Of a stretch of 64,000 bases of DNA, positions 58,583 to 64,000 are shown one piece after another. Made by a program: the position numbers and the translations under genes. The first letter of the stretch is position 1. Each line of letters begins with the position of its first letter. The notes under the pieces are model-generated. The model saw only the letters and a program-made list of their open reading frames with translations, searched no databases and was not told the DNA's origin. Origin of the DNA: Ignavibacteriaceae bacterium (lineage in GTDB: Bacteria; Bacteroidota; Ignavibacteria; Ignavibacteriales; Ignavibacteriaceae); assembly GCA_020848375.1 (NCBI GenBank), contig JADLAF010000110.1, positions 17,649 through 81,648 on the forward strand, in the 5' to 3' direction.

Positions 58583-58670
58583 TTTGAGTTGTAAAAGCTA
58601 AAGTCCTTTTTGTCCTTGACAGCTTACCTCGCACAAAGACGCTAAGGCCCCAAGGAAATCCTTAGTAAAC

Positions 58671-58702
58671 AAAAAAGGCGGCCAAATTAGGTCGCCTTTT
58701 TT
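58671..58702 (+). terminator. Rho-independent terminator
   Basis: aaaaaaggcggccaaattaggtcgcctttttt. Confidence 0.7.
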
Positions 58703-58710
58703 ATTGAAAT

Positions 58711-63178: not shown

Positions 63179-63290
63179 GAATCCGGCCTGTGAAAGTGTA
63201 AAAATTTAGTGACAGATAAGAAAAGATAAAGAAAATCTGGTATAATTCAGCAAAAAATGCTATCTTAGTATTCTGATTTTGAAATTATAT

Positions 63291-63363
63291 CGCGGGGTGG
63301 AGCAATTGGTAGCTCGTCGGGCTCATAACCCGAAGGCTGTAGGTTCAAGTCCTGCCCCCGCTA
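63291..63363 (+). tRNA. initiator tRNA-fMet (CAT)
   Basis: Anticodon arm tcGGG-ctCATaa-CCCga (three consecutive G-C pairs) and unpaired 1:72 position are initiator hallmarks. Confidence 0.92.
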
Positions 63364-63367
63364 CTGA

Positions 63368-63402
63368 GAAAAAAAAGGTCATCGAAAGATGGCCTTTTTT
63401 GT
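63368..63402 (+). terminator. Terminator with GAAA loop after tRNA-fMet
   Basis: aaaggtcatc-gaaa-gatggccttttttg. Confidence 0.8.
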
Positions 63403-63407
63403 TTTAA

Positions 63408-63462
63408 GGGCTATGGAGAGTCGGGCTCATATTCCGAAAGCATTCGGAATGTAGGTTCAAGT
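63408..63462 (+). pseudogene. Degenerate tRNA-fMet remnant with hairpin insert
   Basis: gtcgggctcat[attccgaaagcattcggaat]gtaggttcaagt matches pieces of the tRNA at 63291. Confidence 0.8.
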
Positions 63463-63487
63463 GGAGGGAAAAGAAAGAGTTTTATAT

Positions 63488-63569
63488 CGCGGGGTGGAGT
63501 CCCGAGCATCGGGAGTAGCTCGTCGGGCTCATAACCCGAAGGCTGTAGGTTCAAGTCCTGCCCCCGCTA
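63488..63569 (+). pseudogene. tRNA-fMet duplicate with hairpin in place of D-loop (possibly nonfunctional)
   Basis: Identical to 63291 copy except caattgg is replaced by tcccgagcatcgggag. Confidence 0.8.
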
Positions 63570-63573
63570 CCAG

Positions 63574-63605
63574 AAAAAGAGGTCATCGAAAGGTGACCTC
63601 TTTTG
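63574..63605 (+). terminator. Duplicate terminator with GAAA loop
   Basis: gaggtcatc-gaaa-ggtgacctcttttg. Confidence 0.78.
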
Positions 63606-63620
63606 TTTTAAAAAGAAAGT

Positions 63621-63720
63621 TCTGTTCATACTTGTAACTCGATGGCTGTAGGTTCAATTCGCGGATAATTGTGCCCTCAGGGAAAGAGGTGATCGAAAAA
63701 TGGCCACTTTGTGTTTTAAG
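63621..63720 (+). pseudogene. Further decayed tRNA-fMet plus terminator remnant
   Basis: aactcgatggctgtaggttcaattc and aaagaggtgatcgaaaaatggccactttgtgttttaag align to the unit above. Confidence 0.65.
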
Positions 63721-63863
63721 GTTCGAGGCGAATGAAATTATAATGAAGAAATTTGGCGGATTCCGTTTCTCCGCCGGGCATATCCTTATTCCCGCCTTTT
63801 CAATATATTTGTCATCGGTAATTTTCTCAAAGAATGCATCCAGGAAATCAACAAGGTAAAAAA

Positions 63864-64000
63864 ATGAGCGATACAACACCCATCCTTGCCACTTATAAAG
63901 ACGGGGCTCTGCACCTTCTTCGGGATTTCTCAGCAGAAGAACTCAGAGGAAAAGAGATTCGGGTTATCGTTGTGGAACATGCCCCTTCAGATGAGAGCAA
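63864..64000 (+). CDS. small antitoxin-like protein, truncated by window edge
   Basis: ATG at 63864: MSDTTPILATYKDGALHLLRDFSAEELRGKEIRVIVVEHAPSDES...; resembles DUF104-type antitoxins of PIN toxins. Confidence 0.5.
   Translation, partial: MSDTTPILATYKDGALHLLRDFSAEELRGKEIRVIVVEHAPSDES

Follow-up and report, generated by a model that had tools for sequence, protein, structure and literature searches.

A palindrome-interrupted tRNA-fMet copy and a class of similar RNA-gene copies associated with small GIY-YIG genes

The stretch of 64,000 nucleotides of an Ignavibacteriaceae genome that was analysed here (the window) contains, close to its intact initiator tRNA gene, a full-length copy of that gene in which the D-loop has been replaced by a palindrome. 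This copy, which we have named copy C, is a member of a class of palindrome-interrupted RNA-gene copies for which we found no description in the open-access literature searched, and the existence of such a class across the FCB superphylum is well supported. At the level of DNA comparison, our data establish that the copies have undergone a palindrome-for-palindrome exchange, and they likewise establish an association with GIY-YIG genes, the duplication of parts of RNA genes, and the recurrence of the same borders.

Results

The tRNA-fMet array of the window

The features of the locus are collected in Table 1. The same terminator is repeated behind each of copies A, C, and D, and copy C starts 124 nt past the intact tRNA-fMet gene. 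Two blocks of copy C match the intact gene at 100% identity, a 5' block of 18 nt (63285-63302 in the intact gene, 63482-63499 in copy C) and a 3' block of 56 nt (63309-63364 and 63515-63570, respectively), and the borders of the exchange lie where the intact gene reads GGGTGGAG, then CAATTG, then GTAGCTCG. The type of palindrome found in copy B is also present, at the same site, in locus L181 and in G001, a complete genome of the same genus. G001 additionally has TATATTTG at the place that matches the -7 element of the window, and its intact tRNA-fMet gene, like copy C, encodes the CCA. A dispersed repeat inside the window was considered and rejected, as the palindrome of copy C is unique in the 64 kb (0.14 occurrences expected for the gapped pattern).

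Table 1 Features of the tRNA-fMet locus in the window.
Feature	Position	Strand	Basis and remarks
Promoter-like -7 element TATCTTAG, upstream of the intact tRNA-fMet	63261..63268	+	Sequence; one mismatch to TAnnTTTG
Copy A, intact initiator tRNA-fMet (CAT), CCA not encoded	63291..63363	+	ARAGORN; Rfam 63.7 bits
Terminator-like hairpin and T-run 3' of copy A	63370..63407	+	Repeat family D1, inverted repeat I2
Copy B, truncated tRNA-fMet fragment, anticodon arm to T-arm	63420..63460	+	Repeats D4, D5; blastn fragments
Palindrome TTCCGAAAGCATTCGGAA of copy B in place of ACCCGAAGGC, after anticodon-loop CATA	63432..63449	+	Sequence comparison
Leader repeat TTATAT before copy C, identical to the copy A leader	63482..63487	+	Repeat D6
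Copy C, full-length tRNA-fMet copy, D-loop replaced	63488..63569	+	ARAGORN, Rfam, repeat comparison
Palindrome TCCCGAGCATCGGGA of copy C in place of D-loop CAATTG	63500..63514	+	Sequence comparison
Encoded CCA of copy C	63570..63572	+	Sequence
Terminator-like hairpin 3' of copy C	63574..63611	+	D1, I3
Copy D, decayed 3' fragment of tRNA-fMet	63635..63664	+	D3, D4
Decayed terminator repeat 3' of copy D	63681..63718	+	D1 (71%)

An earlier note on this DNA had described a tRNA-fMet copy with a perfect hairpin in its D-loop, and this description is confirmed, with TCCCGAGCATCGGGA taking the place of CAATTG and the rest of the copy repeating the intact gene. The statement that the two genes differ only in the D-arm is right about the D-loop exchange and goes too far in its "only", since the 3' end of the copy reads CCA where the intact gene has CTG. 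The terminator assigned to the copy is also real, though it was duplicated from the one that follows the intact gene, while the proposed promoter atatcgcgggg turns out to be the repeated leader followed by the start of the tRNA.

Past the array, in 63720-64000 of the window, the next reading frame begins at 63864, near the end, and a similar frame follows the fMet array of G001; the contig itself ends 430 nt past copy C. Elsewhere in the window, a strong hairpin at 58662-58707, which has T-runs on both strands and a weak match to CsrC on both strands, is most likely a bidirectional terminator.

Copy C as a probable inactivated tRNA copy

The sole ARAGORN call at the locus is at 63291-63364, and copy C is not called as a tRNA. 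Covariance scoring, which the earlier note had proposed as a check, gives the intact gene 63.7 bits against the Rfam tRNA model and copy C a partial match of 35 bits (model positions 10-63), so that the copy is not recognised as a complete tRNA with a normal D-arm. When the 80-nt body of copy C is folded, a structure with an extended D-arm (-33.3 kcal/mol) scores better than the cmscan cloverleaf (-27.8 kcal/mol), and no other cloverleaf has a D-arm of normal appearance; from these predicted energies, the G18/G19 contacts are therefore probably lost, as had been anticipated. Across the interrupted copies, Rfam returns nothing besides tRNA and weak matches below the gathering threshold. Judged by its sequence, copy C is an inactivated tRNA copy and not a working tRNA.

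Palindromes in the fMet D-loop of other genomes

In a DNA search of 20 relatives, several members of the family proved to have additional fMet fragments close to the intact gene, with palindromes located in the D-loop, the anticodon loop, or the T-arm. G001 contains three D-loop palindrome copies upstream of fMet and, downstream of it, a B-then-C arrangement that resembles the window. In public genomes, a pattern with TCCCGA arms matched 20 stretches from Neomarinimicrobiota, Chlorobiota, Fibrobacter, Ignavibacteria, and Bacteroidota, and an intact tRNA-fMet adjoins most of these stretches. One of them belongs to the isolate Tangfeifania diversioriginum DSM 27063, in which the hairpin copy occupies L179:7347-7377. 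In 14 of the 18 named loci, a TAnnTTTG promoter-like site precedes the first hairpin copy at a distance of at most 130 nt.

When 396 genomes of the phylum were searched with the flanks alone (GGGGTGGAG, 10-26 free bases, GTAGCTCG), 10 sites were recovered in 8 genomes. Nine of these sites are palindromes, and the tenth is an unrelated sequence that matches by chance. The stems at these sites differ (TCCCGA, TCCGTC, TCCGTCC, and others, one of them with a G.T pair), while the D-loop borders are identical across genus, family, class, and phyla. Across the phylum, 52 of 248 genomes contain the palindrome TCCCGACNNGTCGGGA, compared to 2 for the reversed pattern. In two genomes of the same class (G390 and G275), a GIY-YIG reading frame lies directly 5' of an fMet D-loop palindrome copy and runs into it; the copy in G390 is full length, with CCA and a terminator, and thus has the architecture of copy C.

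An inverted repeat is exchanged for a palindrome

Strong GC palindromes of 11-22 bp sit at the exact place of a missing inverted repeat, at sites that include the D-loop, the junction of the D and anticodon arms, the anticodon loop, and the T-arm. An automated comparison of copies with their intact tRNAs yielded 57 unique clean palindromic inserts, which fall into 17 isotype-by-site groups, the copies within an array not being independent of each other. The removed segments are themselves inverted repeats, for example CAATTG, GCATCTGC, CGAGTTCG, CAAATCTTG, ACCGAAGGGT, and CCAGAGTGG. At least one outer complementary pair is present in 16 of the 17 groups, compared to 5.5 expected (p<2e-5) when segments are drawn at random from the same tRNAs, matched in length and in the base limits at their ends (the first base of an insert is T and the last is A). 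At least two outer pairs are seen in 11/17 groups (0.83 expected) and at least three in 7/17 (0.13 expected). In only 3 of the 17 groups can the two bases that directly flank the removed segment pair with each other, and the removed piece is therefore usually a whole small inverted repeat. Double-hairpin inserts of 22 nt and 18 nt (L132, L146, L133, L115) entail no loss of tRNA bases, as illustrated by CTCCGTAGGAG-TCCCTTCGGGA in a tRNA-Ser anticodon loop; those of 22 nt are found in copies of tRNA-Ser and tRNA-Val.

Other RNA genes and the layout of the arrays

The search of other genomes for palindromes in RNA genes, also suggested by the earlier note, was productive, as interrupted copies were found of tRNAs for Thr, Ser, Val, Lys, Asn, Asp, Pro, and elongator Met, and of 5S rRNA. 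Using blastn, nearby fragments were detected for approximately 6 of the 39 tRNAs in the genome of the window and for approximately 11 of the 44 in G001. The arrays have two layouts: upstream arrays repeat the leader and 5' part of the gene, between the promoter and the intact gene, and downstream arrays repeat the 3' part and terminator, after the intact gene and its terminator. The elongator Met array of G001 has six units of approximately 73 nt, and in these, palindromes such as TCCCGATACATCGGGA take the place of the anticodon arm CTGACTCATAATCAG. In the same genome, CAGGTGTG of 5S rRNA is replaced by palindromes of the TCCCGACAGGTCGGGA type in three tandem 3' copies directly after the rRNA operon (L221, G001:C1:3410600-3413000). 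Among the 50 listed TCCCGAN{2,6}TCGGGA places of G001, 38 are no more than 1 kb away from a tRNA, compared to 0.8 expected, and are distributed over 11 tRNA loci; the rest include three in 5S rRNA copies, two in tRNA-Pro copies, and one in a tRNA-Ser copy.

Two genomes from another family of the phylum, G049 and G137 (L197, L198, L202-L206), have most of their palindromes in other dispersed or tandem repeats, and tRNA genes are therefore not the sole target; given these genomes, hairpin-forming repeats of any kind may be targeted. Some of these palindromes stand beside repeats of the GGATCCTTC...CAGGATGAC type.

Small GIY-YIG genes within the arrays

Small stand-alone SLX1-like GIY-YIG genes are often located between an intact tRNA and a 3' palindrome copy. 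One example is a set of five near-identical 315-bp units that follows tRNA-Asp in G002. For the best 30 loci matching PF01541 (Pfam), drawn from 21 genomes, an intact tRNA lies within 1.5 kb in 15 and a tRNA fragment is present in 18. The number of small GIY-YIG genes correlates with the number of palindromes (Spearman 0.71, p=0.0003, 21 genomes), although some of the GIY-YIG units enter both counts and are thus partly counted twice, and the correlation is therefore supporting and not decisive. The three genomes without a small GIY-YIG gene have 1-2 palindromes each, which is the control level. G001 has only 4 small GIY-YIG genes, yet its palindromes are spread over 11 tRNA loci.

The associated reading frames contain the PF01541 domain with the invariant catalytic-type Tyr, Tyr, Arg, and Glu. 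Their best relatives in the PDB are UPF0213 proteins, with SLX1 matching weakly, and the UPF0213 structures 1zg2 and 1ywl have been placed in the Slx1 family (PMC1564403). Within a tRNA-Ser array in the genome of the window (G000:C113; L132, L102), two small GIY-YIG genes are flanked by tRNA-Ser copies that palindromes interrupt; the two genes differ with a dN of 0.068 and a dS of 0.55 (dN/dS ~0.12), and the protein is therefore under purifying selection. In some units the GIY-YIG gene has its stop codon, TAG, inside the palindrome CCCGACTAGTCGGG, so that the palindrome ends the frame (L086 2095-2352; L116, the elongator Met unit of G001). No GIY-YIG gene was found close to the fMet copies, either in the window or in G001, nor in the 5' arrays examined, and action in trans must therefore be assumed at these places.

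Discussion

The explanation we favor, to which we would give roughly an even chance, is that copy C is a palindrome-interrupted RNA-gene copy produced by a process that duplicates parts of genes and swaps their hairpins, probably by means of a GIY-YIG nuclease. In such a process, a structure-specific nuclease of the SLX1-like GIY-YIG type would cut at the base of the small hairpins that tRNA genes may extrude, either at replication forks or in cruciforms, and repair would both duplicate part of the gene and trade the hairpin for a palindrome. The exchange would keep the copy inactive and would break up the homology that otherwise allows a copy to recombine away; the unit, with or without a nuclease gene, would therefore persist beside the intact tRNA. 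A more far-reaching version, in which SLX1-like GIY-YIG nucleases are selfish elements that parasitise tRNA and 5S genes, swapping hairpins and building arrays of inactivated copies around an intact gene, seems to us somewhat less probable than even.

Several alternatives need to be weighed against hairpin exchange by a nuclease. Neutral tRNA duplicates could have been struck by a mobile palindromic repeat resembling REP, RPE, or mitochondrial hairpin elements, with only redundant copies tolerating the insertion and GIY-YIG proteins playing no part. Related palindromes do recur within one genome, the palindromes of G049 and G137 also occupy other dispersed repeats, and the excess of palindrome-bearing tRNA loci over small GIY-YIG genes in G001 fits as well. 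By itself, however, this idea explains neither the exact removal of a resident inverted repeat, nor the strong bias toward RNA-gene copies in G001, nor the correlation with GIY-YIG number, and we regard it as a possible but rather unlikely account. Of the three ideas in the earlier note, a palindromic-element insertion comes nearest to what we observe; the event is, however, a replacement and not a plain insertion, and copy C is one instance of a genome-wide and superphylum-wide class. The hairpin units could also be RNA elements under selection, situated in tRNA leaders or trailers and serving processing, stability, or regulation, with the palindromes as conserved RNA hairpins. Such a role is suggested by borders that are identical across phyla, by stems that vary in sequence with pairing kept, and by the upstream position of the copies at most named loci, between the TAnnTTTG-like site and the intact fMet (the 14 of 18 above). 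Repeated insertion equally predicts varying stems, however, and the D-loop pattern is patchy (8 of 396 genomes), the copies track the host's own tRNA sequence, and many of them are truncated or decayed. Copy C moreover sits beyond the intact gene's terminator, and we consider such an RNA role improbable. The specialised tRNA-like RNA with its own promoter that the earlier note raised is not supported: a promoter of the TAnnTTTG type is absent between the intact gene and copy C (63364 to 63488), the presence of copies is patchy from genome to genome, and many copies are truncated and decayed.

Far less probable still is that the copies are attachment-site duplicates left by integrase-mediated insertion of integrative elements or prophages. 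Transfer RNA genes are the usual integration targets and partial copies of them are common (PMC9897764); the present units, however, are tandem and only 70-315 bp in size, duplicate 5' parts in addition to 3' parts, and have palindromes inside the copies, and no integrase was noticed among the sequences that were read. We place last a one-off event, either a template-switch mutation, from which a perfect short hairpin would be expected, or an assembly error, which the end of the contig shortly after copy C might suggest. Both are refuted by the recurrences: the same structure is present in the complete genome of the same genus and in many others, and the same palindrome sequences appear in different tRNAs. 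Near-identical palindromes (TCCCGACNNGTCGGGA) recur in unrelated tRNAs that could not template them locally, which disposes of the template switch raised in the earlier note, and an artefact of assembly is unlikely given that G001, a single contig, has the same order of copy B and then hairpin copy after fMet.

If the nucleases are indeed selfish elements of this kind, hairpin swapping would be a mode of DNA rearrangement for which we found no description; searches of the open-access literature returned none, whether for GIY-YIG proteins in connection with tRNA genes, for palindromic elements, for tRNA pseudogenes, or for double hairpins, which is weak evidence of absence. Eukaryotic Slx1 maintains rDNA copy number (PMC1564403), and by analogy it becomes testable whether SLX1-like nucleases shape RNA-gene arrays. 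The work provides a sequence-level rule and a candidate enzyme for widespread remodelling of tRNA genes in Bacteroidota and relatives, and the rule of exchange is simple, quantitative, and directly testable. It could also account for the odd partial tRNAs in genome annotations and point to a function for stand-alone GIY-YIG proteins that are now orphans.

The class shares features with four known systems. The Rickettsia palindromic elements (RPE) resemble the present class in being short palindromes that are scattered over a bacterial genome and occur within genes. The RPE are, however, larger in-frame insertions in protein genes, whereas the palindromes described here are 11-22 bp in length and replace an inverted repeat in partial tRNA or 5S copies; in G001, 38 of the 50 listed places are near tRNA genes and others lie in copies of tRNA-Pro, tRNA-Ser, and 5S rRNA.

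The repetitive hairpin-forming and double-hairpin elements and GC clusters of mitochondria are short single and double hairpins, present several times per genome in intergenic and rRNA positions (PMC2800124), and the 22-nt double hairpins of the Ser and Val copies look alike. Judged by counts against reversed-pattern controls, the present palindromes are likewise short dispersed hairpin repeats; they differ in that they belong to bacterial genomes of the FCB group and not to mitochondria, are concentrated in tandem RNA-gene copies, replace palindrome with palindrome, and are linked to GIY-YIG genes. The stand-alone prokaryotic GIY-YIG proteins of the Slx1 family (UPF0213, 1zg2, 1ywl; PMC1564403) are the nearest structures to the reading frames matching PF01541, which differ in being multicopy and embedded in tRNA-derived units, an arrangement we did not find in the literature searched. 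Finally, the tRNA fragments of integrative elements (PMC9897764) also place a partial tRNA beside an intact one, whereas the units of the present class are tiny and tandem, contain internal palindromes, and copy 5' as well as 3' parts of the gene.
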